A stretch of 64,000 nt of DNA from Nodularia spumigena CCY9414. Lineage in GTDB: Bacteria; Cyanobacteriota; Cyanobacteriia; Cyanobacteriales; Nostocaceae. Shown piece by piece: positions 47,977 through 63,455 of this stretch. The position numbers were made by a program, and so were the translations under genes. The DNA lies in contig NZ_CP007203.1 of NCBI RefSeq assembly GCF_000340565.2, positions 155,898 to 219,897 of the forward strand, written 5' to 3'. Position 1 is the stretch's first letter, and the number at the start of each line of letters is the position of its first letter. Under the pieces are notes generated by a model. That model was not told the DNA's origin and ran no database searches. It saw nothing but the letters and a program-made list of their open reading frames with translations.

Positions 47977-49434
47977 TTAATTTTCCTGAATTTGCTCAAT
48001 TTGATGACCGTTAATTTCTACCCCGTGTGCAGCCAGACATTTTTCCCAACCTGCACGAGTCCCAATTTCGCTTTTCTGCTTGAGTAGCCCTAATTGCTGT
48101 TCTTTTTGAGTCAGTTGAGCAAATTCCTCATAGCGGGGGTAGTTAGGAGTGACAAAATTTTCCTTGCGGTGCAGAATTGGCGGATTCGTTCTTTCTGCAT
48201 AATCACGGTGAGTTATGTATAAAGTTTTTAAGTCAATTGTGATACTGGCTTTTAAAGCGGGATGGGGATCACTGTCAAAATCTGGGTAAAACAAATAGGA
48301 TATTTGCGGTTTTTCAATGTTGTATTTAATTAATGTGGCTCCATCGACACGCCCAATAGTACGACTAGCACAGCTTTCATAAATTCGTAATAAAGGATCT
48401 AGTGCTGGGAGTGCTGAAACATGAACGTATAGTGCGCCTCGTGTGTGTTTACCAATTTTGCTTTTTTCACAAGCTGTTTGCACAACTTTGGGATCACCTA
48501 AACTGAACAGTTTTTGGTCGGCTACTTGACAAGCTTCTTCATAGCTACCGAAAAAGGCTTTGATATCGTGACGCATCTCTGGGGCTAGTTTTTGCCATGA
48601 CGGACGTTGATCAAAGTGGCTGAGGGCGAGATATACTTGGATATCTAAAGAACGACGATAGGCGATCGCATCCCATTCAGGTTCATCGGTAGCTTGTAAC
48701 ACCACATTAAAAGCCCGGCGGAAGTTTCCAAATTCACTGAGTAATTCTGTTTGGTTCGCTAATTCGCCTTTAACGGGTAATCTGCCCCGTTTGGCAAAAA
48801 AGTCCATCAGTGGTTGTAATTGCTCTTGGTAGTCCTCAAAGCGCTTACTGGGGATACGAACTCTGGGTGTAGCAGTGCTAGAAAAGAAGCGGATGGCTTT
48901 AAAACTTTCTTTAGCAGCTTCATCACGAAAAACAAAATAGACACCTAAAGCTACTGGGACTGCATCAACGTTGAGAACTTCATCTATATAGGTTTTCAGT
49001 TCTTGTTGTTCATAATACTTCTGAAAGGTGTTGCGGCGAGTCACAATACCATCGCTGTAAGCTAGTTGTGCTTTACTAGGGGCATTAATTAATACTTGAG
49101 CCGCCACAATTAAAACCTGTTGAGTAAGTTCCCAAGCATGGATGAGACTTTGGCGGCGTTCCTCTTGGTCTTCAATCACATTGAGGACATAACCCAAATT
49201 GACCACATCGGCGGCGGTCATTGATTCATTGGGAAAATAATAAGGGTCCCAACCAGCGCTGGTGTAGCCTAAATTGCCGACTCGCTGCACATCACCACCG
49301 TAGCCGCAGCCGTAATCAAAGAATGAGGTTTCCTGATGAAGGATAGCCCATTCTATTGCCAACCGCACGGGGCGAGATATATCATTACGAGCGATCGCAG
49401 CTCGATGACGCTCGATTTCTAAAGATTCAGGCAT
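47977..49434 (-). CDS. DNA phosphorothioation-associated putative methyltransferase
   Basis: 485 aa. Near the N-terminus is an SAM-binding-like segment FFDYGCGYGGDVQRVGNLGY and LGYVLNVIEDQEERR, followed by a long unassigned region. The start PESLEIERHRAAIARNDISRPV is typical of the Dnd-associated methyltransferase family (TIGR04096 by recall). It lies 27 bp downstream of dndE on the same strand, separated by an STRR. Whether it methylates DNA is unknown. Confidence 0.85.
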   Translation of the reverse strand: MPESLEIERHRAAIARNDISRPVRLAIEWAILHQETSFFDYGCGYGGDVQRVGNLGYTSAGWDPYYFPNESMTAADVVNLGYVLNVIEDQEERRQSLIHAWELTQQVLIVAAQVLINAPSKAQLAYSDGIVTRRNTFQKYYEQQELKTYIDEVLNVDAVPVALGVYFVFRDEAAKESFKAIRFFSSTATPRVRIPSKRFEDYQEQLQPLMDFFAKRGRLPVKGELANQTELLSEFGNFRRAFNVVLQATDEPEWDAIAYRRSLDIQVYLALSHFDQRPSWQKLAPEMRHDIKAFFGSYEEACQVADQKLFSLGDPKVVQTACEKSKIGKHTRGALYVHVSALPALDPLLRIYESCASRTIGRVDGATLIKYNIEKPQISYLFYPDFDSDPHPALKASITIDLKTLYITHRDYAERTNPPILHRKENFVTPNYPRYEEFAQLTQKEQQLGLLKQKSEIGTRAGWEKCLAAHGVEINGHQIEQIQEN

Positions 49435-49435
49435 A

Positions 49436-49470
49436 TCAGTTATCAGTTAACAGTTAACAGTTAACAGTTA
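49436..49470. repeat. TTAACAG heptamer repeat between dndE and the methyltransferase
   Basis: CAGTTATCAGTTAACAGTTAACAG-type units of 7 bp, running to the dndE stop codon; a different heptamer from the TGACAAA type. Confidence 0.8.
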
Positions 49471-49868
49471 TTAATATCCTTTCCATCTTTGAGCGCGAGT
49501 TGGATTAAATCTTCAATTTTCTTGATATTTGGATCACCCGCTAAATAACCAATTCCCCGATGCAAGTGCAGCCGAAATTGGCTAGCGAGGCTGTCTTTAT
49601 CAATGGGGTAGCCGTCGTTGTGACAGCGTTGCTTGAGGGCGAGGAGGAGGATATCAGACATTTCGCCGCCAAATACCCGCCAGGTCATTTCCACGTTGCT
49701 ATCTTGGGGAATTAGTACGGGTGAGGGTGCAGTTGCTTCAGCTAGGGAACGACAAAAAGCCCAACGACATAAAATGTTCCATTGGTCAATTTTTGTAGTG
49801 CGTCTGAGTTTAAGAAGTTGGTCTTTGGCTGTTTGAGAAAGTTTAATTCTTTCAATTGGAGATTCCAT
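49461..49868 (-). CDS. dndE: DNA sulfur modification protein DndE
   Basis: 135 aa. It shows SPIERIKLSQTAKDQLLKLRR, WNILCRWAFCRSLAE and the late FRLHLHRGIGYLAGD, all characteristic of DndE, which binds nicked DNA and belongs to the DndCDE modification complex. Length is normal. It is not adjacent to dndD here: a toxin-antitoxin pair of about 600 bp separates them. Confidence 0.93.
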   Translation of the reverse strand: MESPIERIKLSQTAKDQLLKLRRTTKIDQWNILCRWAFCRSLAEATAPSPVLIPQDSNVEMTWRVFGGEMSDILLLALKQRCHNDGYPIDKDSLASQFRLHLHRGIGYLAGDPNIKKIEDLIQLALKDGKDINNC

Positions 49869-50018
49869 AATAATTCCATAATATAGCGATCCTATCTCTT
49901 TTTTCTCTTCCTCTGTGATCTCTGTGTCTCTGTGGTATGGCTAACGCCACGCTCCGCTAACGTTAAAAAAATCCCGTTCAAAACTCAAATATAATTCCTA
50001 TATTAATTATTACTTGAG

Positions 50019-50366
50019 TCATAAACCCAAACAGTAACGAACCGCCGCTTCAACTTCAAGCATCTTAGAATCAGAAATTTTGCCAGTTGATTTAGCAGCA
50101 AAGCGATTTGGATCTAAAGAGCGAATTTGAAAACATAAAAATACAGTTTCTATCAGCAATCCACTGTCACTGGGAGATACTCTAATATTAGTAGGATAAT
50201 CGCGCTTAATATTTGTGCCTTTCGTCCCTACAACTACAGTCACTACCAAAGGTAATTGGTTAATAGCGTCTACAGATAAAACTAATACAGGTCTTGTCCC
50301 TGACTGTTCTCGACCTATAACTGGATTAAGATTAACAAAATAAATTTGCCCTCTTTCGATCCTCAC
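50019..50366 (-). CDS. MazF/PemK-type toxin endoribonuclease
   Basis: 115 aa. It has the MazF fold signature RGQIYFVNLNPVIGREQSGTRPVLVLS, the VTVVVGTKGT strand and a C-terminal FLCFQIRSLDPNRF. The GTG start overlaps the stop of the upstream antitoxin by 4 bp (GTGA), the normal coupled arrangement. It should cleave mRNA at specific sites when released. It lies between dndD and dndE. Confidence 0.93.
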   Translation of the reverse strand: MRIERGQIYFVNLNPVIGREQSGTRPVLVLSVDAINQLPLVVTVVVGTKGTNIKRDYPTNIRVSPSDSGLLIETVFLCFQIRSLDPNRFAAKSTGKISDSKMLEVEAAVRYCLGL

Positions 50367-50614
50367 GGCTGTGATAATCCATCCATCTCAGTAACAAAAA
50401 ATTCCTGATTAATAGTGGATATCTCTGTTTGTATATCTGAATCTATAGCCATTGCAGCTAGTTGTTCCTGCATATATTTCATATTTATAAATATATCTGA
50501 TGTTTGCTGCTTTTCTTTCATTTGTTTTTGGATACGTTCTAAAAGCCATTCTAGTTCTTCTAATGACAAACCACTTAAATCACGTTCGATTTCTCGTAAA
50601 TTTGATGACATCAT
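50363..50614 (-). CDS. Antitoxin partner of the MazF-type toxin
   Basis: 83 aa. A LSLEELEWLLERIQKQMKEK segment matches the common cyanobacterial antitoxins beside MazF proteins. The C-terminal part (INQEFFVTEMDGLSQP) is likely the toxin-neutralising tail. No clear helix-turn-helix is visible. It directly precedes and overlaps the toxin gene. Confidence 0.8.
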   Translation of the reverse strand: MMSSNLREIERDLSGLSLEELEWLLERIQKQMKEKQQTSDIFINMKYMQEQLAAMAIDSDIQTEISTINQEFFVTEMDGLSQP

Positions 50615-50671
50615 AATTAACTAGCGATTTTTACCTGTGAGTGAGATATCTATTATTTTAAACAACATCTA

Positions 50672-52657
50672 CTACCAAAAATATTTATTTTCTATGATTG
50701 TAGTTTGGCGGGTGGAGGAGTCGTATTTGAGGAGATATTCACGAGCGATCGCCTCATTATTTCTCAGTGTTTCTACTTCGTGTTTACCAATTTCAGTATC
50801 AGTAGACAACAGTATTACTTGATGACTAGCGGATGGAAAATACCGTTCTACGAGATTTCCCCGGTGGGATGAGTCCAATCTCCCCAGAGGCGTGTCTATG
50901 GCTACAGGTAAGCGGTGTCCAGAGACTCGCGCTAATCCCCAGAGAAAGGCGATCGCTAAAAGTTGCTTTTCGCCGGCTGAAAGTCGATGTTTGGGAACTG
51001 GTTTACCATTAAAGTCATACAGAGAGAGGCTGAAACTATCTGTATGAATGGCGACACGATGCACTAAATCTGATTTATGCAGCAGGTAGCGGAAACATTC
51101 TGTAACTTCAACTTCTAATTTATTCAGTTTGCGGAGAGTCAGTTTTTCCCGAAAAAGTTTGAGTGTATCTTGAACTTTAGCCGTTGCCGTAATAATATGT
51201 TCATTATATTTGCGGTCAATATTAGTTTCTGTATATTTTTCTAAGGTTTTTTTAGTAGTCCGAATTTGAGTGTCTAATTCATTCAAATTTTGTTTCGCTA
51301 TTTCACAAGCTGCTTGGGCTTCTGCAACTTCTTTTTGGGCTGCTTGCAATTCATCTACCAGCCTTTGATAATCTTCTGGAGATGCGGCTGTTTGAATTTG
51401 TCTTTCTAGGGTAATAACTTCTTCTTCTTGAGTTTGGTGTAGTTCTAGCTGCTTTTGAGTAGCATTTTTTGTATAGGGTAAATAATGATGAATAATATTA
51501 TCTAAATGATGCAGAGTTTCTGTATCAGATAATAGCCAAACTTCCCCTGTAGTATCTTGCTTAATGAGATTATTTTCTTCGTCAATAAAATCTTGAATTT
51601 TTTCTACTTGTTGGTCAGCAATAGTTAATTGTTTAATTAATTCAATTAAGCGGTGATCTCGTTCTAATAATAAATTATATGCTACCTTAGCTTGTTGAGT
51701 CCGAAATTCCTTTTGTCCTTGGAGATAAGCTTGATTTAGCAAAGGTTCAATTAAAGCTAACGGTAAAATATCAGCAGCTAATCCGCGCATGGCTTGACGG
51801 CTATTTTCTGACTCAGCAACTATTTGAGATTTTTGTTTTTCTAAATAAGTGCGATCGCCTGCAATTTTACCACCTTCAGAGATGAATTTATCCACAGCTT
51901 CTTGCTGCTTCTTTTCTGCTACTACTAAATTATCAGTCAGTTCCTTTAATTGAACTTCAACTTCCTGATATTCCTTTTGTTCTAACTTGAGTTGATGTTC
52001 AATTTCTTCTAAATTAGCCAAATCTTGAGTATCCGCAATTTCTTTGCGCTTGCGGTTGACGATAATTTCTAAATCACCGCCTAAACGTTCAGCTAGTTCT
52101 AAACCTAAAAGTCCGCGAATTGCATCAACTACAATCGATGGAGGTGTTTCTTGTTCTGCGAGTTCCTTAACTTGTTCACCATCAAATAGAAACAAGTTAG
52201 AAATCCCTAAAGGTAAGAGATTTTCGATATACTCATCCCAAATATTAACTAAAGCCGTATCCAGCCATTCTTGAGCATCTAAAATCCCTAATTGGTCTTT
52301 ACCATCTTTAGGGTTTTTTGTCCAGCGTCGAACAACTCTATATTTTACTGGTTGGTCATTTTCAATATGTTCAAAAACTAATTCAATGCGAGTATCTTCA
52401 GTGGGTGAACTGTGACTATTAACGCATTGGTTAAGAAAATCATTATAACTCAAGTTCCCACGGGTAGAACATTGGGCGCGATGTCCATATAATGCTAGGC
52501 GAATTGCATCCATCAGGGTAGTTTTTCCGCCCCCATTCATCCCACCTAATAGAATAATTGGATAGGAATTTTCCTGATCAATTTTTGGGTCAAGGTTGAT
52601 TACCTGACGACCACAGTAAGGGCCAAAGTTTTGTAATACGAGTTCAAGAAATATCAT
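50672..52657 (-). CDS. dndD: DNA sulfur modification protein DndD
   Basis: 661 aa SMC/Rad50-like ATPase. It has an N-terminal Walker A LGGMNGGGKTTLMDAIRLALYG (38 onwards), FLFDGEQVKELAE, long coiled coils (about 210-540), the signature LSAGEKQLLAIAFLWGL and Walker B/D-loop AIDTPLGRLDSSHR. It has no cysteine hook in the coiled-coil middle. In Dnd systems DndD supplies ATP hydrolysis to open DNA for sulfur insertion. It follows dndC by 86 bp, with a strong hairpin in the gap. Confidence 0.93.
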   Translation of the reverse strand: MIFLELVLQNFGPYCGRQVINLDPKIDQENSYPIILLGGMNGGGKTTLMDAIRLALYGHRAQCSTRGNLSYNDFLNQCVNSHSSPTEDTRIELVFEHIENDQPVKYRVVRRWTKNPKDGKDQLGILDAQEWLDTALVNIWDEYIENLLPLGISNLFLFDGEQVKELAEQETPPSIVVDAIRGLLGLELAERLGGDLEIIVNRKRKEIADTQDLANLEEIEHQLKLEQKEYQEVEVQLKELTDNLVVAEKKQQEAVDKFISEGGKIAGDRTYLEKQKSQIVAESENSRQAMRGLAADILPLALIEPLLNQAYLQGQKEFRTQQAKVAYNLLLERDHRLIELIKQLTIADQQVEKIQDFIDEENNLIKQDTTGEVWLLSDTETLHHLDNIIHHYLPYTKNATQKQLELHQTQEEEVITLERQIQTAASPEDYQRLVDELQAAQKEVAEAQAACEIAKQNLNELDTQIRTTKKTLEKYTETNIDRKYNEHIITATAKVQDTLKLFREKLTLRKLNKLEVEVTECFRYLLHKSDLVHRVAIHTDSFSLSLYDFNGKPVPKHRLSAGEKQLLAIAFLWGLARVSGHRLPVAIDTPLGRLDSSHRGNLVERYFPSASHQVILLSTDTEIGKHEVETLRNNEAIAREYLLKYDSSTRQTTIIENKYFW

Positions 52658-52693
52658 TTATTTTTGAGTTTTTAAGATACGGGGCGAGAGAAG

Positions 52694-52717
52694 ACCGGGC
52701 GAATGAATTCACCCGGT
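52694..52717. promoter_or_regulatory. Hairpin between dndC and dndD
   Basis: On the minus strand ACCGGGTGAAT pairs with ATTCGCCCGGT around a 2-nt apex, with a single G-T pair. With little T-run after it, it may be a partial terminator, an mRNA stabiliser or a processing site that tunes the dndC:dndD ratio. Confidence 0.6.
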
Positions 52718-52743
52718 ATTTTATAATCAATATTCATTTTTAC

Positions 52744-54345
52744 TTAACTCTTTTTAAACTTCATACTTCCCCAACTTGGCGGTTTATCGCTTGCGTCGTC
52801 GCTTTCATCCACAGCGTCGCCCAAAGTCAACTGCTTGACCTTTTTCACATCCCCTTGGTCAACGGCTGTTTTTAAATCACGTTTCAAATGAGCATTTTTA
52901 ATCGCTTCCTCTGGAGAATGGGAACTGGTGACAAAACATTTCTCTAAACTGTCATATATTCCCACCCGACGACCTTTTTTCCGATACTGGCGTTCTGTAT
53001 CTAACAGCTTAGACATCAGTTCTAAGTGCATAGCATCATCGCCACAAATTTCCTCTAACACTTCCCATTCATCGCTACCCAGTAGACTGTAGCCAGCACC
53101 AGGACGGGGGTCTTTGAAAACTTCACCAGTCACTTCTTGATAAATGCGCGGTAAACTATCATCAAATTCGTGCTTTTCTTCTAGCCAGATGCGGCGAATT
53201 TCGCTAAGTTCCTCTGGACTTATTAGCGTAATGTCGCGCATATTTTCTGGTGCTGTACGCCTGATTTTAGTTTGTGCTTCTAGTAACTTTCTTAACAAAT
53301 GTTCTCGCCAAGATTTAACGTAGGGGCCTGGTATTGGTTCAATAGAAACTTCCCCTTCCAAGTTGCGCTCAAATAGTTGAACTTCTCCCCAGATGCGGCG
53401 AAAGTCTCGCTTACTTCGGTCTTGGTCAATATTTAATTCTTCTAAACGAATATCAATCAGAGGTTGCAACCATTCTTTCTCTTCATCATTTTGAATCATG
53501 GCTTGCATAGACCTATCACTATTAACTAATGTACAGACCCAGCATCCAAAACGAGAGCTACCACAACTAGGAGTAGAAGTATCAACTACTAAAGGACATT
53601 CATTATCTGCTGTTGCACCTCGATACATAGCAAATAAGTCTTTGTTGCTGTATTCCCAAGGATTTGACCATTGCATCAAATACAGCCAAACTTCATCAGT
53701 ACGCCAATCTTCGATGGGAGTATAAAGCAGTGAGTTAACCAGACTAGGATGAGGACTAAGGCGCTCTCGGACTCTACCAATTTCACGCTTGGCCATAATA
53801 GCCGCACGATTAGTACTTTCCGTCTTGCGAGTTCCCAAGACTACAATTGTTTCACCACTAGCCCGGACAACATCACGAATGAAGTTGTTAGAAGGGTCAA
53901 TTTTCAATCTTCCGGTACACCAACGGAATTTGTGACGTGGTGCTGGATAGCCTTTACCCATCAAACCTACCCAGTAACTCTGTTTAGTCTCTGGTTTCAA
54001 TAAATGCGGTTTTATGGGCATTTTTTGCTCTTGAGCCGCTACTTTCATCTGTTCTAATGAATTACGTACCCAAGTAGCAACATAAGGATTCTCGACACCT
54101 GTATCAGTTGTAATTACATGAATTGGTTTAATCCGTTTTTCTGGTGGAAGTTCATGTATTGCGTTCCAGATAAGCTGTAAGGTCGCCGTGCTGTCTTTAC
54201 CTCCGGAATACCCCACAACCCAAGGTATCTCGTCTAAACAATATAATTCTTGTATTTCAGTGGTGAGAACTTGGATATAGTCCACTAACTCTGCTACAGT
54301 ACGTGTTTGCGGAACTTTATTTTCTGGTTGTTGTGCTGTAGTCAT
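52744..54345 (-). CDS. dndC: DNA sulfur modification protein DndC
   Basis: 533 aa PAPS-reductase-like enzyme. It has the PP-loop VVGYSGGKDSTATL (residues 43-56), ITTDTGVENP, and a cysteine cluster CPLVV...SCG...GCWVCTL (about 245-275) expected to hold a 4Fe-4S cluster. It activates the DNA backbone for sulfur transfer from a cysteine desulfurase. That desulfurase (DndA or IscS) is not in the window. It is divergent from dndB, with 183 bp between. Confidence 0.95.
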   Translation of the reverse strand: MTTAQQPENKVPQTRTVAELVDYIQVLTTEIQELYCLDEIPWVVGYSGGKDSTATLQLIWNAIHELPPEKRIKPIHVITTDTGVENPYVATWVRNSLEQMKVAAQEQKMPIKPHLLKPETKQSYWVGLMGKGYPAPRHKFRWCTGRLKIDPSNNFIRDVVRASGETIVVLGTRKTESTNRAAIMAKREIGRVRERLSPHPSLVNSLLYTPIEDWRTDEVWLYLMQWSNPWEYSNKDLFAMYRGATADNECPLVVDTSTPSCGSSRFGCWVCTLVNSDRSMQAMIQNDEEKEWLQPLIDIRLEELNIDQDRSKRDFRRIWGEVQLFERNLEGEVSIEPIPGPYVKSWREHLLRKLLEAQTKIRRTAPENMRDITLISPEELSEIRRIWLEEKHEFDDSLPRIYQEVTGEVFKDPRPGAGYSLLGSDEWEVLEEICGDDAMHLELMSKLLDTERQYRKKGRRVGIYDSLEKCFVTSSHSPEEAIKNAHLKRDLKTAVDQGDVKKVKQLTLGDAVDESDDASDKPPSWGSMKFKKS

Positions 54346-54528
54346 AATCTCTCTATATTTTTAAATATGGGTGTGACTTGATTTTTAGTATCCCAGTGAA
54401 TGGAATTAGCTGGTATACAGGCAAAATTTACCTATGTCGGTGCAAAATTTTTTTAAAAACCTTACTACTATTACTCAATTTTTAGACAATTAGACTATCC
54501 TAACACCATTTACTTTTTAAAAATTAAT

Positions 54529-56127
54529 ATGAAGAAGAATGTATCAGATCAAACTGCTGACATCGCTCAAGAGTATCTGGAACGGGAAAACAAGGATAAA
54601 CAGGTACTCGCCTTACTGCTAGAGAAGTTCATGGGGAAGAAAGACCAGATTTTAGTCCAAAAAACCGAGATGGGCGGTACTGAGGCTTTTGTTGGTTCTG
54701 TTACCTTGGAATGGTTGGCTGGTCGTGTTCACTTCGCCTCTGGTTTACCCTTGCTTGAGAAAAAGTACAATCCAGACACTGGTAACATTGAGATTGACGC
54801 AGATAGCATTGATGAAATTCAGCAACGTCCCATTGACTGGACACGTCAAGCACCACTAGTACAGTATTTAGCAGCGCGGAAAAGTCATAAATTCCCACCT
54901 GTGCTGGTAGTAATTAATCAACCTTGGGTAGATAACCCCAAAGCGGCTGAGTGGGATAGTCAGGGAATAGCTTTAAAATCTACTACTGATTTCACCCCTT
55001 TAGATAAAGATGGTAAAGTTGGTCTGCTGAATATTTCTGAAGAAAATGTGACAATTTATGCTTTGGATGGTCAGCACCGACTCATGAGTGTACAAGGGTT
55101 GATGGAGTTAATCAAAACTCGCAAATTGCAGCGCTATAAAAAAGATAAAACTGCTGATGATAATTCTATTACCTTAGATGATTTGAGAGATAAGTACCAA
55201 GTAGACCTTGATTACTTGCAAAGCTTACCCAAAGAAAAAATAGGAATTGAATTTATCTGTGCGGTTGCGGCTGGGGAAACTCGCACCGAAGCTAGGCGAA
55301 GAGTAAGGTCTATCTTTGTTCATGTTAACTTAATGGCTGCACCATTGACTAAAGGTCAGTTAGCACAGCTAAATGAGGATGATGGGTTTTCCATTGTGGC
55401 GAGAAAAATTGCTGTTACTCATCCGCTTTTGGAACAACGAAAAGAGCGCAATCCTCGTGTTAATTGGAATAGTGGAACAGTGGCATCTAATTCTACTGTT
55501 TTAACCACCCTGCAAGCTCTCCATGATATGTGTGAGCGATATTTGGGGCAAAAGTTCCCTCACTGGAAACCTCTGGAAAAAGGCTTAATTCCCATGCGTC
55601 CAGAGGATGAAGAACTTGAGGAGGGAATTGCGGAATTTAGCAATTTATTTGATCATTTAGCCAGCCTTCCCAGTTATAAGCTGCTGGATGAAGAAGACAC
55701 TCCAACTTTGCGACGCTTTAGTTTTGAAAAGGATGGGGGAGAAGGAAATCTGCTTTTTCGTCCTGTTGCACAAGTGGCTTTAGCGCAAGCTTTGGGAATC
55801 TTGGTTTTTCAAAAAGGTTTTACACTAGCAAATGTCTTTAAAAAGTTGCGGAAATTCGACCAACAAGGCGGTTTAAGTGGTATGGAGTATCCCCAGTCTT
55901 TATGGTATGGCGTTTTGTATGACCCCAATAAAAAGCGAGTCCAGGTTTCTGGACGGGAATTAGCGGCGAAGTTACTAATTTATATTCTGGGTGGAGTTCA
56001 GGATCAAATGGAACGCGCTGAACTGCGTAAGGCTTTGGCTGATGCGAGAACTATAGAAAATAAAACAATAGGTTTTGATGGTAAGTTTGTCGAACCCAAG
56101 CAAGTAGGACTTCCACCAGTGCTGTAA
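54529..56127 (+). CDS. dndB: DNA sulfur modification protein DndB
   Basis: 532 aa DGQHR-domain protein. The diagnostic YALDGQHRLMSVQG lies at residues about 178-190, and VHVNLMAAPLTKGQ follows. In characterised systems DndB is a transcriptional regulator and influences modification frequency, and the divergent position relative to dndC is typical. The intergenic region 54346-54528 should contain both promoters and any DndB site. Its stop codon directly abuts the HNH gene's stop on the other strand. Confidence 0.93.
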   Translation: MKKNVSDQTADIAQEYLERENKDKQVLALLLEKFMGKKDQILVQKTEMGGTEAFVGSVTLEWLAGRVHFASGLPLLEKKYNPDTGNIEIDADSIDEIQQRPIDWTRQAPLVQYLAARKSHKFPPVLVVINQPWVDNPKAAEWDSQGIALKSTTDFTPLDKDGKVGLLNISEENVTIYALDGQHRLMSVQGLMELIKTRKLQRYKKDKTADDNSITLDDLRDKYQVDLDYLQSLPKEKIGIEFICAVAAGETRTEARRRVRSIFVHVNLMAAPLTKGQLAQLNEDDGFSIVARKIAVTHPLLEQRKERNPRVNWNSGTVASNSTVLTTLQALHDMCERYLGQKFPHWKPLEKGLIPMRPEDEELEEGIAEFSNLFDHLASLPSYKLLDEEDTPTLRRFSFEKDGGEGNLLFRPVAQVALAQALGILVFQKGFTLANVFKKLRKFDQQGGLSGMEYPQSLWYGVLYDPNKKRVQVSGRELAAKLLIYILGGVQDQMERAELRKALADARTIENKTIGFDGKFVEPKQVGLPPVL

Positions 56128-57069
56128 TTAGGCTTGAAATATATTTTGGCGATGCCATTGAAGTGCTTCTAATTCTGGAAAGTATTGTTCTGTATTTGGT
56201 AGAAGTATTTTTTCCCCATGAAAATCTTTCATAGGTTTAGCGTAGGGAGAAACTTCTGCCAAATCTTCGCTCACAATGATTTTGTATTGCTCGTCTATGG
56301 TAAACCAACCACGGTCAAATGCCCAATGATGATTTTTACACAGTGCTATTCCATTATGGATTCTGTTGTCATAAAACTGGGAAAATGGTTTAATGTGTGC
56401 GCCATCAATAATATTTTGATTTATGGCTTTAGTTACTTTCAGTCCACAAAAAGCACACCTAGAATCATAAACATATACAATAGCTTTCCTGAAAAAAGCA
56501 TTTCTAATTGCTGCTCGCTTTAACTGCCATCTTGGCTCATAATCTGCATTTTCAGATTTAAGTAATTTTTCTATTTCTACAGTTTGGTCATCAAAAGTCT
56601 CATTGATTTTCAAAATAACTTCTATATCACTTTCATTCTCAGAAAAGAAGGCTACCACGAGTGCATCAATTAAATATTTTCGAGAAGTTTCATCTTGGAG
56701 GAAGTTAAATAATTCAATATCTAAATAGGCATATTCAATAGTTTCTTTCAGTCTTTTAGTCGTTTTTGGACGCAACCCATTAAAATGAGGTGTAAACGCT
56801 AAGTACCAAAATCCTTCATTTTTGAGATGGTAGAAAGGATAGTGTAAACCACCTTTGTGATACGCAGATCCTATAACATTCCAGTAATTCGTAAATGTTT
56901 TAATTAATTCGTCTGAAATATAAATTTTATTATCGTTAATAATACCTCTGCTAATTAAGTCAACTACAGATAAAAGTAATATAGGTTTATATAAAGCATT
57001 CCCAAGCTTCCGGCTAACGCTAACATTTAATTGTGAAAATTTTTGCCGATAATGTTCTAAATTTTTCAT
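56128..57069 (-). CDS. HNH endonuclease with probable sulfur-binding domain
   Basis: 313 aa. The N-terminal 160 residues show LGNALYKPILLLSVVDLI and GGLHYPFYHLKNEGFWYL; the Tyr-Pro (77-78) in this context resembles the sulfur-binding pocket of ScoMcrA-type SBD proteins. The C-terminal HNH domain has CAFCGLKV (205-212), IDGAHIKPFS (221-230) and ALCKNHHWAFDRGWF (242-256), all conserved. Such SBD-HNH proteins cut phosphorothioated DNA. Its presence inside a dnd locus is unexpected. SBD assignment is from pattern, not alignment. Confidence 0.8.
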   Translation of the reverse strand: MKNLEHYRQKFSQLNVSVSRKLGNALYKPILLLSVVDLISRGIINDNKIYISDELIKTFTNYWNVIGSAYHKGGLHYPFYHLKNEGFWYLAFTPHFNGLRPKTTKRLKETIEYAYLDIELFNFLQDETSRKYLIDALVVAFFSENESDIEVILKINETFDDQTVEIEKLLKSENADYEPRWQLKRAAIRNAFFRKAIVYVYDSRCAFCGLKVTKAINQNIIDGAHIKPFSQFYDNRIHNGIALCKNHHWAFDRGWFTIDEQYKIIVSEDLAEVSPYAKPMKDFHGEKILLPNTEQYFPELEALQWHRQNIFQA

Positions 57070-57095
57070 TTTAAAGCTTTATTTGAAGAAATAAA

Positions 57096-57566
57096 TTAAC
57101 TTAAAAATTTACTAAGATCAAATTCTTCGTCTGACTGTTCTTGAGCATCTTTTTCGGAAATGAGAAGCAATAACAGACGTTCTGAATAATCAACGGCTCC
57201 TCGTAATTCATTTTGTAAAATTTCCAGCCCTCCATTAGCATACTCTTCAAATATTTGGGTACGTTGATCTTCATACTCTTCTTCTCTAGAAGAAAGTATT
57301 TGTATATCTTTGGTTTCAGTTATTCCTAATAAGTTGATAATGAGGTCATGTCCTAGAGAGGCAAAATTTTCTTGTGGAATTGGCGAAGGTTCCCTTTTTG
57401 TAAATTCGCCTAGAGGAACACGTTTTTTATGTTTGACTCCCAAAGCTGCGGCAAATACCATTACTTCTACATAAGTTTGAAAAGGACCAGTTGTGTCTTT
57501 TGATGCTAATAACTGTTTCACCAACTCAGCCTTATCTTTAGCAACCCTGATTCTGTTTGCAGCCAT
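57096..57566 (-). CDS. Dnd system-associated protein 4
   Basis: 156 aa. RIRVAKDKAELVKQLL, GPFQTYVEVMVFAAALGVKHKKRVPL and the acidic C-terminus EYANGGLEILQNEL match the dnd system-associated protein 4 family (TIGR04062 by recall). The function is unknown; it is seen only near dnd genes, often with DndB or restriction genes. It lies 26 bp upstream of the HNH gene, so the two are probably co-expressed. Confidence 0.87.
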   Translation of the reverse strand: MAANRIRVAKDKAELVKQLLASKDTTGPFQTYVEVMVFAAALGVKHKKRVPLGEFTKREPSPIPQENFASLGHDLIINLLGITETKDIQILSSREEEYEDQRTQIFEEYANGGLEILQNELRGAVDYSERLLLLLISEKDAQEQSDEEFDLSKFLS

Positions 57567-57618
57567 AATAATGATATTTATATTGTGACTATTTTAACCG
57601 AATATTAGATGCGATCGC

Positions 57619-58224
57619 CTATTCCCCTTTCCTCTCTGTGTCCTCTGCGCCTCTGTGGTTCGTCAACTCCACATCCTCATAAACCAGAGACAGAGGAAAG
57701 CGAAAATCAACACTAGTTAAATGAACCTTATCCCCCTCAGCGTAAGGATGTAACTCCCATAAACCCCTATCATTCAATCGAAAACAATCCAAACTCATTT
57801 TTTGAGCATCAATCAGCACATACTCTTGCAAAGTTGCTATCCGACGATACTGCGTAAACTTACCCCCTCTGTCGTAAGCTTCCGTACCTGGGGAAAGAAC
57901 CTCAACAATCAGACAAGGATACTGAATAAACTTAATAGCTTGTTTATCCCTGGGATGACAACTCACCATCACATCCGGGTAATGAAAGGGGCCATTTTCC
58001 GATACACCCAGCTTTGCATCTGCCATAAAAGCACGACACTTACCCCCTCGTAAATGTCCTTTTAACGCCGCAGCTAAATTAAGAGCAATAGTAGTATGAG
58101 GAATAGTCCCCCCAGTCATGGCAAAAACTTCACCATTGATATATTCATACTTAACCTCCTGTGTCTCCTCCCATTCCAAATACTCCTGGGGAGACATATA
58201 ACTTCCTTCTCGACTCGCAATCAT
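57619..58224 (-). CDS. Uma2-family putative endonuclease
   Basis: 201 aa. It has SPQEYLEWEETQEVKYEYINGE, the MTGGTIPHTTIA loop, PFHYPDVMVSC and LIVEVLSPGTEAYDRGGK. Its ATG overlaps the stop of an upstream 50-codon frame (ATGA). It lies inside the dnd island between protein 4 and the second ATPase. Given how common Uma2 genes are here (four in the window), its position may be coincidental. Confidence 0.85.
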   Translation of the reverse strand: MIASREGSYMSPQEYLEWEETQEVKYEYINGEVFAMTGGTIPHTTIALNLAAALKGHLRGGKCRAFMADAKLGVSENGPFHYPDVMVSCHPRDKQAIKFIQYPCLIVEVLSPGTEAYDRGGKFTQYRRIATLQEYVLIDAQKMSLDCFRLNDRGLWELHPYAEGDKVHLTSVDFRFPLSLVYEDVELTNHRGAEDTERKGE

Positions 58225-58373
58225 AACCCCACCTCAAAAACAACCACCCATCTTAACTCTACCTCTTCCCTCCGCGCCTTTGCCCAGTGGTTTTGGGTGT
58301 CAAAAAAGGCGAGGGTGTGGGTGTGGGATAAGGTGAGAAGAAAGGTGAGTATTGCTAGGGTATATTGGTTCAT
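58221..58373 (-). CDS. Possible 50-aa secreted peptide or SLH-domain remnant
   Basis: A frame from ATG 58371-58373 starts with a signal-like hydrophobic segment (MNQYTLAILTFLLTLS) followed by FFDTQNHWAKA, the usual opening of an SLH domain. It then loses similarity. Its TGA overlaps the Uma2 start by 4 bp. It may be a fragment of an SLH gene rather than a functional peptide. Confidence 0.35.
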   Translation of the reverse strand: MNQYTLAILTFLLTLSHTHTLAFFDTQNHWAKARREEVELRWVVVFEVGL

Positions 58374-58454
58374 GATTGTCTCACGCTGAGGCGCAGAGGC
58401 GCAGAGAAGAATAGAGAAGCGTACAGTGGGAAAGAATGTCAATCAATTCTTTTG

Positions 58455-58490
58455 ACTGATAACTGATAACTGATAACTGATAACTGTTAA
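58455..58490. repeat. AACTGAT heptamer repeat
   Basis: Five GATAACT units of 7 bp end at the stop codon of the 689 aa ATPase gene; the same TAACTGAT family as 49436-49470, also within the dnd island. Confidence 0.8.
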
Positions 58491-60556
58491 TTACGAATTA
58501 TTTCTATGATTTCGGTATATTCAAATTCGTTGGGACTTTGCTTGACTAAGGGGTATCTTTGTCCTGCTAATTGGATATAATTTTGTTCACAATCTGGTTT
58601 TGAGGAATAATAGGTAAGTACGTATTCTTTACCAATTCTTTCTGTCATTTCTTCTTCTACTTCACCTCTCCATTGAGTTTTACTGGCTAAGACAATTAAT
58701 TGATTAGCTAATTTGGGAATTGTCCCCGCTATATGTCTCCGTGACATTTCATCTAAGCTGCCAAAGGGGGAATCCATAACAATAGGAAATGTGCTACTAT
58801 CGGGAAGCATCATCATTTTGCGCTTTTGACTCCACTCTCTCACTTTATCTATGATGCTGGCAATGAAGGATAAGCTGAGAATTTGATTTTCTCCTGTAGA
58901 AGCTGCAACTGGTGCTTCTATTCCCGCAGTGTGTTCTACTAAGGTTAATTCATATTTTTCGCTAATTTTGGGAATATATGGTTTGACTGAAAGCTGGTTA
59001 AATATCTCTTGGACTCGTTTTTCTAGTTGCAGACGAAATTGTTTTTCTTGCCGATTTTTAACTTCGGTTAACCGTTCAATTGCATCTTGAGTAGCGTTAA
59101 TGCGTCGCTGTGCTAAAATTTGTCGTTCTTCATTTAGTTTCTGCTTGGATATTTGTTTACCTAAAGCATCAATTTGTGTTTTTAATTGAATAATTTTCTG
59201 CTGGTTTGCACCTTGTTCTCGATTTAGTTCGTCAATTTTGCTGGAAATCTCATCTAAGCGTTTTTGTAAGCTGCTAATTTCTTCATTTGCATCTTTTCGT
59301 AGTTTGTCTTGAAGGTTATCTAATTCACCTTCAACTTGGGATATAGTTTCTCTTAACTGTTTAATTCTGGCTTGTTCTCTATCAACTTCTTCCCAAAAAG
59401 CCCCAGCTTGTTTATCAATTTCATCGACTTGAACACCCATGCGAATAGCGGTTTCTTCTACGGCTGAAGAACCAGCTTTATCTAGCCAAGTTCGGACATT
59501 TTCATGATTATCAGTACCTGCGCTTAAGTCTGCACCACAAATACAGCGTTGAGTTTTTAATAATTCGTTGACAAATTCCCGCGAAATTCCAGAGGTTAAC
59601 TCACCTCGCTGTTTTAAATCATCAACAATTTTCCGAAATTGTGATGTCGTCTCCCCCAGTAACACTGTATAACCCCGTGAGGAAATGATTTTTTTCAGGG
59701 CTTCTTTATTTTTTTTGAATGCTTCCTGGTTTTCGGCTTTCTGCAATTCTAAATTTTGCCACCTGTCTTCTATTTCTTTGGCTTTAACAAGTTCCAATAA
59801 ACGGTTACTTGTCTCTTTTTTAAAGGTTTGCTGATATTCTAACTCTTGTTTAATTTCTGTTTGGCGGTTGGTGATGCGTTCACTTTCTTGTTCTATCTGT
59901 TCTTGCTGTTTTAGCAGTTTCTTTGTTTCTGCATTACCAATGGCTTTCAACTCATTCTCTAAAGTTTTTTTCGCTTCTCCTAAATGTCGGATAGAACGGT
60001 TAATTACTTCCACACCCAAGAAAATCTTAGTCGCTTCCGCAATTTCCGCTTTTTTATCAGAACGCACGATTTCTTCTATGCGTTCACCGTCAAAGAAAAA
60101 ATATTGATGTAAACTTGCAGGTAAAATTTGATTAATAATATCATCTGGTTGTTGTTGTGGTATGTACCAGCTACCATCGTCTTCACCTACCCACATCCGT
60201 AATTCTGTTTTACCAGCTTCAAAGTCGCTGTCATTTTTATAAACCCGACAGGAACGGTTAACTTTATAGCGTTTACCTTCGTGTTCCCAGCCAACTTCTA
60301 CCCAACATCCTACAGCTTGACCTTTTTGGGCTTCAGCTATGGAACGTTTATTAACTAACTGTTCGGCGGAGGCGAAAGCGGCACTAAATTTTTCATATAA
60401 TACCCAAGTGAAGGCATTGAGTAAACTGGTTTTTCCAGAACCGTTATTACCATGAATAATTGTGGTGTTCAGGGTATCTCCCACGGCGAGGAATATTTCT
60501 GGGGTTGTACCATAAAAGGAGCGAAAGTTGCACAGCTTAATTGAAGTTAGCTTCAT
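58487..60556 (-). CDS. DndD/Rad50-like SMC ATPase, second copy in the island
   Basis: 689 aa. Walker A is IIHGNNGSGKTSLLNAFTW (33-51). FFFDGERIEEIVRSDKK (153-169) follows, a motif shared with DndD. Long coiled coils span about 185-300 and 380-540, with a CIC-G turn (Cys338, Cys340) between them as a possible hook. Then come the signature STGENQILSLSF and Walker B IVMDSPFGSLDEMSRR. It is not a duplicate of the neighbouring dndD: the hook and N-terminus differ. It overlaps the 62 aa gene by 4 bp. Probably a restriction- or defence-side ATPase. Confidence 0.85.
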   Translation of the reverse strand: MKLTSIKLCNFRSFYGTTPEIFLAVGDTLNTTIIHGNNGSGKTSLLNAFTWVLYEKFSAAFASAEQLVNKRSIAEAQKGQAVGCWVEVGWEHEGKRYKVNRSCRVYKNDSDFEAGKTELRMWVGEDDGSWYIPQQQPDDIINQILPASLHQYFFFDGERIEEIVRSDKKAEIAEATKIFLGVEVINRSIRHLGEAKKTLENELKAIGNAETKKLLKQQEQIEQESERITNRQTEIKQELEYQQTFKKETSNRLLELVKAKEIEDRWQNLELQKAENQEAFKKNKEALKKIISSRGYTVLLGETTSQFRKIVDDLKQRGELTSGISREFVNELLKTQRCICGADLSAGTDNHENVRTWLDKAGSSAVEETAIRMGVQVDEIDKQAGAFWEEVDREQARIKQLRETISQVEGELDNLQDKLRKDANEEISSLQKRLDEISSKIDELNREQGANQQKIIQLKTQIDALGKQISKQKLNEERQILAQRRINATQDAIERLTEVKNRQEKQFRLQLEKRVQEIFNQLSVKPYIPKISEKYELTLVEHTAGIEAPVAASTGENQILSLSFIASIIDKVREWSQKRKMMMLPDSSTFPIVMDSPFGSLDEMSRRHIAGTIPKLANQLIVLASKTQWRGEVEEEMTERIGKEYVLTYYSSKPDCEQNYIQLAGQRYPLVKQSPNEFEYTEIIEIIRN

Positions 60557-60741
60557 TGCACTTCTTCCTTGACAATATCTAATATCTCTTCGTTAATATG
60601 GCTATTGATTTTTTTATCTAGTCTGCCTTTTTCCAATTTCCAAACTCGCTCAATAATCTGTCGCACTTCTGGCGACGCACTGGAAATTGGTTCCTGCACA
60701 TCTTCAATATTTGTGTCTGGGAGCATTTGGCGGCTTTTCAA
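60553..60741 (-). CDS. Small partner protein of the SMC-like ATPase
   Basis: 62 aa (57 if the ATG at 60724-60726 is used; the outer start is TTG). It is charged and mainly helical, with SPEVRQIIERVWKLEKGRLDKKINSHINEEILDIVKEEV. Its stop overlaps the ATPase start by 4 bp, so the two are tightly coupled. I do not recognise a family; an accessory subunit of the ATPase is the simplest reading. Confidence 0.7.
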   Translation of the reverse strand: MKSRQMLPDTNIEDVQEPISSASPEVRQIIERVWKLEKGRLDKKINSHINEEILDIVKEEVQ

Positions 60742-61025
60742 TAGGTTTTCTTTATATTTTAGCTGCTATAAGTCCTGCATTTACATCCGTGAAGCTACTA
60801 TTACTCTTGGTTTGAGGTCTGGCTGGAATTTTTGCAATTTATTCGGCAAAAAGAATGCTTGATTTTGCGTTTTGGGTGTGGTAAATTAAAGATGGATTTA
60901 CATTATAATCGTGTATAAGCTAAATTTTTAGAGCAAGGTACAGCCGATTATGATCAACCTTAATATTATTCTCCCACACTTTCTGCTATTTACTACAAAT
61001 TTAAAAAAAATTTTTGTTAAAGAGT

Positions 61026-61218
61026 AGGACTTACGCAAGAACTCTCTGAAACCTTCTTAACTTCGTGTCCTTCTCCCTTGGCGCTAGCCTCTCCCTTTGG
61101 GAGAAGGGGAGACGCTTCGCGAACGTGTCCTTCTCCCTTGGCGCTAGCCTCTCCCTTTGGGAGAAGGGGAGACGCTTCGCGAACGTGGTTCGTTTTTCCA
61201 TAATTTTGCGTAAGTCCT
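61026..61218. mobile_element. MITE with 12-bp ends and nested tandem repeat (copy 3)
   Basis: AGGACTTACGCA (61026-61037) and TGCGTAAGTCCT (61207-61218) bound 193 bp. Outer parts match the partial copy at 47864 (CTCTCTGAAACC, GTGTCC, GGTTCGTTT). The interior has been expanded by a perfect 60-bp tandem duplication. Confidence 0.78.
61065..61184. repeat. Perfect 60-bp tandem duplication inside the MITE
   Basis: Units 61065-61124 and 61125-61184 are identical. Each contains a palindrome TCTCCCTTTGGGAGA followed by AGACGCTTCGCGAAC, the common Nostoc REP sequence. The short frames running through it are repeat artefacts, not genes. Confidence 0.93.
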
Positions 61219-61281
61219 GAAAGAGGAACGAACCGCCAAGACGCAAAGAACGCCAAGGAGGAGGAGGAGGAGGAAGTATTA

Positions 61282-62751
61282 TCAAATATCTAATAATCCG
61301 TAACGTTTTTGTAAGTTTAGTAGTTTCATTCTAGCTTCGCCGGCGTTATCGGCTAGGTCGGCAAATTCTACGAAGCGGCGGAGTTCTTTTTTTAAGAGGT
61401 TGCGTTCTATTTCTATGGTTTCTCTATCTAAGTCTGGTGGTAGGACTATCATATCGAATATGGTGGCGCGTTCTTTACCAATGTGAGGACGTAATACTCT
61501 CCCCCGGCGCTGTATGAATTGGCGCGGGTTTCCAGAACTTGATAATATGACGGCTGTTTGAATGGCTGGTATATCAACTCCTTCGTCTAAACAACGAATT
61601 GCTACTAAACCCTGTAATTCTCCACTTTCAAATTGACAGCGTAAGGTTTCCCGTTCTTTGAGGGAGGTGTGGGCTGTGTATGTGCTGACTCTATATCCTA
61701 AATCTACACCGAGGATTTTGGCTACGGCTTTGAGTTGACGCAAGGATGAACGTTGTCCGGTTTCTTGGGAACCATCGCTACAATAAAATAGTGTGTGGGT
61801 ACTTTCTCGCCGAGTTGTCATTAATTCTCGCAAAGCGGTTAATTTATTTTCTGCTGTACCAATTAACCTGGCGCGTTGCATTAATAATGGTTTTAAGTCT
61901 TCGTTGTCTTCAAAGTTTCCCCCTTGGCTATTTTCTCGTTCTCTATATAATAGCGATCGCCCAATCTTTTTAGTTAACTTTAAATAAGCCATACTTTCCG
62001 TTTCGGTCAGTTCTACAAGTATGGGATAATACAAATAATGTACTAAAGCCCCTTGAGCGATCGCATCCTTTAAGTTAAACTCTGGTTGTAGCACTGAACC
62101 AAAGTAATCAAATAACGATTGCGTACCATAATCATCGAAATACCTTTCTGGTGTCGCCGATAAAGCCAGTCGTAACCCCACCCGACGAGGTAAATTTTCC
62201 TCTAATTTCGGTGCGCCTAAATTATGCGCTTCATCACCAATAATTAAAGTTTTAGGGGGAAAATACTTAAGTTGAGACTGAAAACCATCACCAATTAATG
62301 TGGAATTGGTAGTAATTACCGTAACAAAGTTTTGCGAACCGGAACGCAGATTATACAGTTGGGTAGATAGTTGACTTTGCCAAGTGCGTAAATTCTCGAA
62401 AGCTAAAATAGGCTGTAAGTTAAACTTCTCACATTCTCGCGCCCATTGGGTGACAAGATGACGATAAGGACACACCACTAATAACACTTGTAAATTAATT
62501 TGCTGGTATAATTCACAAGCGATCGCTAAAGCTGTAATAGTTTTACCACTACCAGTAGCCATTTTTAGCGTTCCTCTGCCATTGTTAGCAAACCAGCTAG
62601 TAATAGCCTGTCGCTGATATGGACGTAATTGCAGAGATGCAGGCAAAATTGGGCATCCTGGTAATGGCTGACGAGTTTGATAACTCCCCTTACCTTCCCG
62701 AACAAATGGAAATTTTAGCCTAAAAGTAGATTGTTGTTGATAATTAGTCAT
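61282..62751 (-). CDS. DNA phosphorothioation system restriction helicase
   Basis: 489 aa SF2 DEAD/DEAH helicase. It has LRPYQRQAITSWF, KMATGSGKTITALAIA, VVCPYRHLVTQW, the DEAH box IGDEAHNLG, LALSATPERYFDDYG, and motifs V/VI as RCLDEGVDIPA and QFIQRRGRVLRP. It matches the Dnd-linked restriction enzyme family (TIGR04095 by recall) in length and start (LPGCPILPASLQLRPYQ). No nuclease domain is evident in it, so cleavage probably needs a partner. It lies at the far end of the island, next to lexA. Confidence 0.87.
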   Translation of the reverse strand: MTNYQQQSTFRLKFPFVREGKGSYQTRQPLPGCPILPASLQLRPYQRQAITSWFANNGRGTLKMATGSGKTITALAIACELYQQINLQVLLVVCPYRHLVTQWARECEKFNLQPILAFENLRTWQSQLSTQLYNLRSGSQNFVTVITTNSTLIGDGFQSQLKYFPPKTLIIGDEAHNLGAPKLEENLPRRVGLRLALSATPERYFDDYGTQSLFDYFGSVLQPEFNLKDAIAQGALVHYLYYPILVELTETESMAYLKLTKKIGRSLLYRERENSQGGNFEDNEDLKPLLMQRARLIGTAENKLTALRELMTTRRESTHTLFYCSDGSQETGQRSSLRQLKAVAKILGVDLGYRVSTYTAHTSLKERETLRCQFESGELQGLVAIRCLDEGVDIPAIQTAVILSSSGNPRQFIQRRGRVLRPHIGKERATIFDMIVLPPDLDRETIEIERNLLKKELRRFVEFADLADNAGEARMKLLNLQKRYGLLDI

Positions 62752-62852: not shown

Positions 62853-63455
62853 TTAATAACCGCGCCAAACTCCCACTAGAGAACCCTGCACCTGCACTTG
62901 TGTAGCGAGTACCTCAATGGGTTTATACTTAGAATTGGCAGGCTTGAGAGTTACGCGATCGCCTTGGCGATAAAAACGTTTTAAAGTAGTACCGTAGCCA
63001 TCAACTCTCGCAGCGACGATAGTTCCATTTTTTAACTGGTCTGGTTCTAACACTGGATGCAGAAATACTAAATCGCCATCAGCAATTAAATCTTCAATCA
63101 TGCTATCGCCGGCTACCCGTAAACCATAGCTTTGAGGAGGTAAGGAAACATGAGAAAAGTCTAAATGATCTATAGCGTCAGTAAAAGGTTCAATTAAACC
63201 ACCAGCCGCAATTGTGCCTAAAATTGGGATACCTTGCTTCACAGGATGCAAAATCCGAATCGTTCGCGCCTTACCTTCATTCCAGTCTATATAACCTTTG
63301 GTACGTAAATGCTCTAAACGACTTTGAATTGGTGCAGGTGATTTCAGCTTCATTGCTTCCATCATTTGCCGAATTGAAGGAGAATACTGGTGAATTTTAA
63401 TATATTCTACCAACCAATCGTATAATTGTTGTTGAGCTTCTGTGAGACGTTCCAT
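62853..63455 (-). CDS. lexA: LexA repressor
   Basis: 200 aa. An N-terminal winged helix (LTEAQQQLYDWLVEYIKIH, SPSIRQMMEAM) is followed by the S24 self-cleaving domain: cleavage site Ala84-Gly85 (IAAGGLIEP), catalytic Ser118 (VAGDSMIED) and Lys159 (GTTLKRF). All residues for autocleavage are present. I use the ATG at 63453-63455 (MERLTEAQQQ); eight residues further up is only a TTG. A LexA box lies 33 bp before it, so it is autoregulated. Confidence 0.95.
   Translation of the reverse strand: MERLTEAQQQLYDWLVEYIKIHQYSPSIRQMMEAMKLKSPAPIQSRLEHLRTKGYIDWNEGKARTIRILHPVKQGIPILGTIAAGGLIEPFTDAIDHLDFSHVSLPPQSYGLRVAGDSMIEDLIADGDLVFLHPVLEPDQLKNGTIVAARVDGYGTTLKRFYRQGDRVTLKPANSKYKPIEVLATQVQVQGSLVGVWRGY

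Follow-up and report, generated by a model that had tools for sequence, protein, structure and literature searches.

A DndCDE-PbeABCD cluster with an apparently HKD-less PbeA and an exchangeable slot in Nodularia spumigena CCY9414

Here, we describe a dnd cluster of Nodularia spumigena CCY9414 (order Cyanobacteriales), contained in a stretch of 64,000 nucleotides (the window; G000:C1:155898-219897) of a single-contig 5.46 Mb genome. The cluster combines dndC, dndD and dndE with homologs of the PbeABCD module and with an exchangeable slot, that is, the place between pbeD and the gene for a DGQHR-domain protein, which in the window holds a nuclease composed of a sulfur-binding domain (SBD) and an HNH domain.

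Genes of the cluster and its Pbe module

The features of the cluster are as follows (window positions, strand, and evidence in parentheses; PT, phosphorothioate).

62853..63479, minus: LexA, S24 peptidase plus LexA DNA-binding domain (PF00717, PF01726)
61282..62751, minus: PbeA-type superfamily 2 (SF2) helicase, 489 aa (TIGR04095, 669.8 bits, cut-off 600)
60553..60726, minus: small protein at the PbeB position, 57 aa (place, size, 4-nt overlap with the PbeC start)
58487..60556, minus: PbeC, CxC-type ABC ATPase, 689 aa (PADLOC PDLC02753, 1165 bits; CxC at residue 338)
57619..58224, minus: Uma2-family gene, variable passenger (PF05685)
57096..57566, minus: PbeD, the 'Dnd-associated protein 4' (TIGR04062 dnd_assoc_4, 217.6 bits, cut-off 74.25)
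56128..57069, minus: SBD-HNH nuclease, 313 aa, in the exchangeable slot (8h0l match; PF13391, HNH_2)
54529..56127, plus: DGQHR-domain (ParB/DndB-like) protein, 532 aa (TIGR03187, 194.5 bits; PF14072, 40.9 bits)
52744..54345, minus: DndC sulfurtransferase, 533 aa (TIGR03183, 697.4 bits, cut-off 290.4)
53626..54225, minus: divergent stretch of DndC, residues ~41-240 (windowed identity)
53929..53937, minus: DndC specificity-loop triplet R137-H138-K139 in GYPAP-RHK-FRWC (loop defined in PMC12193691)
50672..52657, minus: DndD (TIGR03185, 712.5 bits, cut-off 245.85)
50019..50614, minus: PemK/MazF-like toxin (PF02452) and probable antitoxin (by place only)
49461..49868, minus: canonical DndE (TIGR03184, 134.6 bits, cut-off 71.85; PF08870)
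47977..49434, minus: putative PT-associated methyltransferase (TIGR04096, 718 bits, cut-off 150)

The dndE, dndD, dndC, methyltransferase, Dnd4 (PbeD) and helicase genes lie where the original prediction, made from the sequence alone, had placed them, and their families exceeded the curated cut-offs. Its second ATPase, a coiled-coil protein, with a small partner was likewise confirmed (PbeC, with the 57-aa open reading frame (ORF) overlapping its start), as was its HNH nuclease with an SBD, residues 4-141 of which match SBDHga1 (PDB 8h0l, E 1.8e-20). The divergent dndB stood in part: the gene, convergent with the HNH gene and divergent from dndC, encodes a DndB-like DGQHR protein, whose PF14072 match (Pfam cut-off 29.1) covers part of the model only, and not the full-length canonical DndB that the relative L032 carries at the HNH position (PF14072, E 5e-84). 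The structural model of the DGQHR protein was poor (pLDDT 64) and Foldseek returned nothing below E 0.1. An Aliivibrio plasmid likewise encodes a DGQHR-domain protein, with dndE on one side and dptHGF on the other (L173:19072-20352).

Rather than forming an undescribed restriction arm, the helicase, ATPase pair and Dnd4 correspond to the PbeABCD/CxC module, first reported in 2019 and annotated anew in 2024 (PMC6459918, PMC10853773). The CxC motif was present in 96 of 97 PbeC sequences compared with 0 of 26 DndD sequences, and a homolog of the 57-aa small protein was located immediately upstream of PbeC at 96 of 97 loci. A duplicate DndD as the identity of the second ATPase was rejected, considering that it reached only 166 of the 245.85 bits needed, versus 1165 for PbeC, and carries the CxC motif. 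PbeD has a DndE fold, which was clear in a VIA alignment; Foldseek alone placed DndE at rank 1-4 but with E values of 0.06-0.96, and sequence profiles were weak (archaeal PbeD over 38 columns with a probability of 31 %, DndE with 3.5 %).

All five PADLOC PbeA profiles matched the helicase only from position 242-261, that is, its N-terminal HKD/PLD nuclease domain is missing. Helicase frames were 451-577 aa long among the matches listed; the archaeal comparator PbeA has 655 aa. We therefore file this PbeA as a predicted HKD-less variant of the PbeABCD/CxC system; according to the published annotation, an HKD/PLD nuclease is fused to the helicase in the 'vast majority' of CxC systems (PMC10853773). 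An HKD nuclease gene in the window that replaces the missing domain was rejected, as PF13091 (HKD/PLD) matched three open frames elsewhere in the genome and none in the window; this model gave only 15.4 bits on archaeal PbeA itself, so a distant HKD partner may exist. Elsewhere in the genome, an open frame of 1505 aa that contains a PLD domain (L178, G000:C1:2575074-2575340) is perhaps another defence gene.

The lexA gene was directly upstream of the helicase gene at 76 of the 77 PbeA loci off a contig edge, counted in our named locus set (the best 80 of 179 by likeness to the window helicase), with a median gap of 110 bp. The exception (L039) fails by the choice of ORF start only, and in the window 101 bp separate the PbeA gene from the LexA stop. 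Co-transcription of LexA and the Pbe helicase is possible.

The cluster is interrupted by the PemK-like toxin pair (50019-50614) and by the Uma2 gene (57619-58224), the latter being found in part of the loci only. A toxin homolog between DndD and DndE also occurs at L117, and the pbeC-pbeD gap gathers passengers, including several kinds of Uma2 and a protein of ~632 aa that looks S-layer-like by eye. Two near-identical, G+C-rich tandem copies of ~60 bp, also noted by eye, lie in the gap between helicase and small protein (~61069-61188). No Rfam family or tRNA was detected when the window was scanned.

Classical restriction genes and conservation in the order

Profile searches for DndF (TIGR03238), DndG (TIGR03236) and DndH (TIGR03237) gave no match in the whole genome, which agrees with the original prediction that the classical dndF, dndG and dndH are missing. 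The DndH search was validated by a match in a control plasmid with dptFGH, whereas the DndF and DndG searches matched nowhere and thus alone prove little. By these match-free genome searches, DndFGH elsewhere in the genome was ruled out as the true partner. In our order-wide sample of 243 genomes, DndH exceeded its cut-off in none, with one match of 20.8 bits. No dndA was found among the scanned cluster genes, the genome at large not having been searched for it. A 2021 study reported that dnd genes are enriched and vertically inherited in this order, that dndFGH is missing and that cyanobacterial dnd, for lack of PT restriction genes, is perhaps antioxidant in origin (PMC8569181); its main text never mentions 'pbe'.

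The genes of the Pbe module were strongly co-conserved with DndC. PbeD (TIGR04062) was present in 200 of the 243 genomes, DndC over its cut-off in 190, the helicase in 198 (TIGR04095 >600 bits, a criterion that misses HKD-bearing PbeA copies) and PbeC (E<=1e-100) in 201. All four occurred together in 180 genomes, none in 32, and 31 were mixed, several of these being incomplete or carrying a gene fragment; phi ranged from 0.70 to 0.87 and was highest for PbeD-PbeC. PbeC was found in 185 of the 190 genomes with DndC over cut-off. Thus, the conservation in relatives that had been proposed as a check holds for ATPase, helicase and Dnd4, and the set counts among the near-core genes of the order and is not a mobile island. 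The methyltransferase (TIGR04096) occurred in 206 of 243 genomes and was rejected as a tight partner, being loosely linked to the other genes (phi 0.48-0.61).

At 43 of the 80 loci, the helicase stretch also carries PbeC and the DGQHR gene, and the genes are arranged as LexA-PbeA-PbeB-PbeC-[variable]-PbeD-[slot]-DGQHR (opposite strand)-DndC-DndD, with DndE beyond where the stretch reaches it. Among these best 80 loci, the closest named relative of the window helicase is the Nodularia metagenome-assembled genome LCM1.Bin15 (L032; 97 %). The genes can also be dispersed: in G169 they are scattered along one contig (helicase at 2.10 Mb, DndC at 2.47, PbeC at 3.34, PbeD at 3.98), and in G065 and G200 the helicase adjoins PbeC with DndC and PbeD far off. 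In a second set of 60 regions, hand-picked for spread among the PbeD/TIGR04062 places listed, pbeD stands alone at several loci, with no Dnd or Pbe gene within ~10 kb (L124, L127, L128, L138 and others of L112-L171); the genomes of these four (G169, G016, G129 and G086) keep the other genes elsewhere.

Such wide retention might indicate a housekeeping or epigenetic/DNA-damage system, for example in redox protection or replication-fork maintenance, that is vertically kept and is not defence. The set occurs in ~80 % of the sampled genomes; the helicase, 84-97 % identical across the 80 loci, is kept beside lexA without the HKD nuclease; at 12 of 80 loci the retrieved stretch shows lexA and helicase but no PbeC, partly because of contig ends, although L090, L098, L099 and L100 have 10 kb on both sides; and an antioxidant origin has been proposed for cyanobacterial dnd (PMC8569181). 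However, 32 of 243 genomes have no part of the set, the slot exchanges genes for nucleases, DGQHR and AIPR-type proteins in the manner of conflict systems, exchange also drives the evolution of PbeD and DndC, and Pbe is antiviral in archaea (PMC6459918). We consider a pure housekeeping role improbable.

The exchangeable slot and covariation with PbeD and DndC

Slot statistics were based on 77 loci (the window included) that have both pbeD and the DGQHR gene; DGQHR-less stretches, such as L066 and L159 (both with an HNH protein), were excluded, and the label HNH means a match of >50 % identity and >60 aa anywhere on the locus. SBD-HNH was present at 30 loci, canonical DndB at 27, both at 0 and neither at 20 (Fisher 4e-8, relatedness ignored). 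By place, 27 of the 30 HNH genes were in the slot, two (L140 and L167) were between the DGQHR gene and dndC, and L069 has an HNH fragment outside the slot rule; 18 of the 27 DndB genes were in the slot and nine between the DGQHR gene and dndC. Among the 20 loci with neither, eight have an empty slot (gap <200 bp), one has 355 bp and 11 have other sequence. Of the filled slots scanned, L045 and L054 carry DGQHR plus a GIY-YIG-like domain, L041 GIY-YIG, and L043 DGQHR plus a different HNH; L073 has a 797-aa GmrSD_N (DUF262-type) protein and L102 a DndB-like protein plus a possible HEPN, the GIY-YIG and DndB of L045, the DndB of L043 and the HEPN of L102 being below Pfam cut-offs. At L075, an AIPR gene lies behind SBD-HNH. 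Thus, the HNH gene is not the fixed, co-conserved part that it had been taken for but one of several slot alternatives, and its mutual exclusion with DndB at these loci may point to a need for the nuclease to fit the PT level.

In the window nuclease, the HNH part resembles a TagI-type HNH (E 0.0005); an SBD plus HNH_2 takes the place of the DUF262 (DGQQR) and DUF1524 HNH domains of the SspE/DndI type, which it lacks, and the protein scores 122.7 bits against NF045808, under the curated 180. Aligned to SBDHga1 and to the ScoMcrA pocket (PMC6224610), the SBD pocket Lys, Tyr and Pro appear to be kept (K28, Y77, P78), and some SBD homologs have Leu instead of the pocket Tyr.

An HNH homolog was found in 66 of the 243 genomes, and where the slot holds a full-length copy, this begins 5-74 bp away from pbeD. 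Is it, then, an independent type IV enzyme against foreign PT-DNA of another motif that merely shares the locus? Characterized SBD-HNH enzymes do cut PT-DNA and were reported near dnd clusters in <3.6 % of cases (PMC7461809), and here 6 of the 66 genomes lack DndC over cut-off and 8 of the 43 genomes with both places listed have the two on different contigs. On the other hand, 60 of the 66 have DndC, in 35 of the 43 the HNH gene is no more than 5 kb from dndC and in 23 no more than 200 bp, and the slot copies adjoin a pbeD that covaries with them and never occur together with DndB. We regard the independent enzyme as rather unlikely. That SBD-HNH is so often inside dnd clusters argues for a nuclease that would be gated by self PT rather than one hunting foreign PT.

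The sequence of PbeD and of part of DndC varied with the content of the slot. On quick trees of 52 loci, the slot label changed at least 4 times for PbeD, 12 for PbeC and 12 for the DGQHR protein (shuffled mean ~17.5; label shuffles do not preserve relatedness). A simpler model with 71 rows gave 3, 12 and 10 changes, respectively. Where all genes were available (33 loci), PbeD needed 2 changes and DndC 3, versus 6 each for PbeC, DGQHR and PbeA; with 38 loci the figures were PbeD 3, DndC 4, and PbeC and DGQHR 7 each. We also compared close pairs, which are non-independent, with a mean PbeC and DGQHR identity of at least 92 % (118 same-slot and 146 different-slot pairs; core 95.7 versus 95.6 %). 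PbeD was 87.4 % identical with the same slot versus 70.0 % with different slots (118 and 146 pairs), DndC 94.5 versus 83.2 % (63 pairs each), and PbeA 95.7 versus 96.0 % (113 and 141 pairs). In a regression on PbeC identity, the same-slot excess was 6.9 points for PbeD and 3.4 for DndC (1 in 2001 permutations each), and no significant effect was obtained by permutation for DGQHR (-0.02, p 0.60), PbeA (0.07), LexA (0.22), DndD (-0.63) or DndE (-0.52), the last two with 14 and 12 loci only. The 655-aa PbeA of L140, 27 % identical, fell below the identity limit of the pair comparison and of the lexA count.

The exchanged segments can be located. Between the window and L032, whose slots differ, dndD and the DGQHR gene are 91-98 % identical, whereas most of dndC reaches 67-80 % and the region around pbeD 76 %; DndC diverges from its start to ~residue 400 and PbeD over its whole length. 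The cleaner pair L087/L062 (core 98 %) diverges at DndC residues ~41-240 (65-78 %; 321-360 at 80 %) and at PbeD ~41-156, and DndC ~41-240 was divergent in every different-slot pair examined. This pattern could reflect hitch-hiking on recombination tracts without any functional matching, for PbeD, DndC and slot all lie within 5 kb and gene-conversion-like blocks are visible. Yet the 1.6-kb DGQHR gene between slot and dndC does not covary, and across it the identity of the window to L032 returns to the high level given above; simple hitch-hiking appears quite unlikely to us.

Within the exchanged stretch lies the loop GYPAPxxxFRW, which according to a 2025 study sets the PT motif, Arg-X-Lys/Arg corresponding to G-ps-GCC and Thr-Arg-Ser to G-ps-AAC/TTC (PMC12193691). 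The window DndC has RHK at residues 137-139, for which the predicted motif would be G-ps-GCC. Among comparators, two gammaproteobacterial proteins have TRS, the triplet published for E. coli B7A, and the haloarchaeal one NQN. Lys occupies the third position at 21 of 22 HNH-type versus 8 of 19 DndB-type loci (Fisher 3e-4, relatedness ignored; loci with a resolved loop, L112 excluded).

A reading of the cluster and its relation to known systems

Taken together, we read the cluster as a DndCDE writer of PT, a PbeABCD scanner with an HKD-less PbeA and one exchangeable slot for an effector or regulator, with a probability of roughly 0.6. The cluster very likely adds sulfur to the host's own DNA and couples this mark to a known DNA-scanning defence module. 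Sulfur would probably come from a housekeeping cysteine desulfurase, and DndCDE would place it at a short motif picked by the DndC loop. PbeC, PbeB and PbeD, the latter as a second DndE-like DNA reader, may scan DNA and, at an unmarked site, recruit the PbeA helicase, which, although it has no nuclease domain itself, would block replication of the incoming DNA. The protein in the slot, an SBD-HNH nuclease in the window, may read the host PT mark and, gated by it, add cleavage or nicking; in other lineages the slot is empty or holds canonical DndB or other genes. The catalytic/specificity part of DndC would be swapped together with PbeD and the slot protein while the chassis of LexA-PbeA-PbeB-PbeC and DGQHR stays, and the whole would be expected to restrict phages. 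The complete write-regulate-restrict system of the original prediction is upheld insofar as DndFGH are missing and ATPase, helicase and Dnd4 are co-conserved with DndC; its restriction arm is instead a known Pbe module, and the HNH gene is not fixed.

Several observations weigh against this reading. The 57-aa protein at the PbeB position has no Pfam or NCBIfam match of note and none to PF20304, which archaeal PbeB matches. In genome G021, the interval from pbeD to the DGQHR gene holds, at L140:10492-14377, a second, full-length and HKD-bearing PbeA (963 bits over the whole PADLOC profile), a partial PbeC-like frame and another frame of 158 aa, perhaps a second Pbe system in decay. The loop triplets of both slot types overlap, RGK occurring also at 4 of 19 DndB-type loci; DndD and DndE did not covary in the small samples available; and with DGQHR as the reference, PbeC (p 0.047) and PbeA (p 0.034) became marginal, at ~0.2 points. 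The eight empty slots belong here as well, as does the apparent replacement of the ScoMcrA pocket His by Tyr (Tyr27 in the window) or Asn. The SBD-HNH frame is short at 6 of the 30 HNH-type loci (L036, L040, L049, L067, L069 and L079), so the nuclease is dispensable and seems to decay readily. Moreover, SBD-HNH enzymes tested elsewhere cut PT-DNA, an activity that would be self-destructive next to a working dnd with that motif (PMC7461809), and a published survey argues against Pbe being simply a replacement for DndFGH (PMC10853773).

A more specific proposal, which we put forward tentatively and hold at somewhat less than even odds, is that PT-based immunity of the Cyanobacteriales rests on a vertically kept chassis and has its self/non-self specificity renewed by recombination that jointly replaces the DndC stretch, PbeD (mainly its second half) and the slot effector, with helicase blocking as the basic activity and the slot nuclease as an add-on gated by self PT. 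If true, this would be a specificity switch like that of type I restriction-modification (R-M) systems but built from unrelated parts, around a naturally nuclease-free PbeA. As this PbeA lacks the disputed HKD nuclease, it is a natural test case for two proposed modes of Pbe action, cleavage (PMC10853773) and a block to replication (PMC6459918). In addition, covarying PbeD-DndC-effector alleles on a near-identical chassis provide ready pairs (window versus L032) for finding the motif-setting protein, and they also bear on how an SBD nuclease coexists with self PT.

A system of this kind is already known. In the literature searched (main texts or passages), we came across no account of the HKD-less form, of its retention across nearly the whole order, of a DndE fold in 'protein 4', of the exclusive slot or of covarying PbeD-DndC alleles; PMC10853773 and PMC6459918 do not use the word 'cyanobacteria' in their main texts, and no paper was found for DndC with 'gene conversion' or for the NCBI name of the helicase, which does not prove absence from print.

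The haloarchaeal DndCDEA-PbeABCD system (Xiong 2019, PMC6459918), which is the CxC ABC-ATPase system of Rakesh 2024 (PMC10853773), shares with the window the order pbeA-B-C-D, the CxC ATPase, a small protein, the DndE-fold PbeD, the helicase and a nearby dndCDE. The window differs from it in a PbeA without HKD/PLD, the lack of dndA in the cluster, lexA upstream, the DGQHR protein, the slot and the near order-wide retention. IscS-DndBCDE-DndI and SspABCD-SspE (PMC11662687, PMC9646914) share the proposed logic of a PT writer with an HNH nuclease gated by self PT, and at the related locus L073 it is the slot itself that holds the GmrSD_N (DUF262-type) protein, whereas the window nuclease is an SBD-HNH protein without a DUF262/DGQQR domain. 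EcoWI, SprMcrA and Mae9806I have the same SBD plus HNH architecture (PMC7461809, PMC6224610); unlike them, the window nuclease is of a type encoded inside the dnd cluster, adjacent to pbeD or dndC, and it is below the NF045808 cut-off. With DndBCDE-DndFGH the DndCDE writer is common, whereas DndFGH match nothing in this genome. Type I R-M systems keep a conserved chassis and exchange HsdS alleles. The likeness to them lies in a conserved chassis with swapped specificity parts, with no homology claimed; unlike in type I R-M, it is a sulfurtransferase stretch, a DndE-like reader and an effector that are swapped here.

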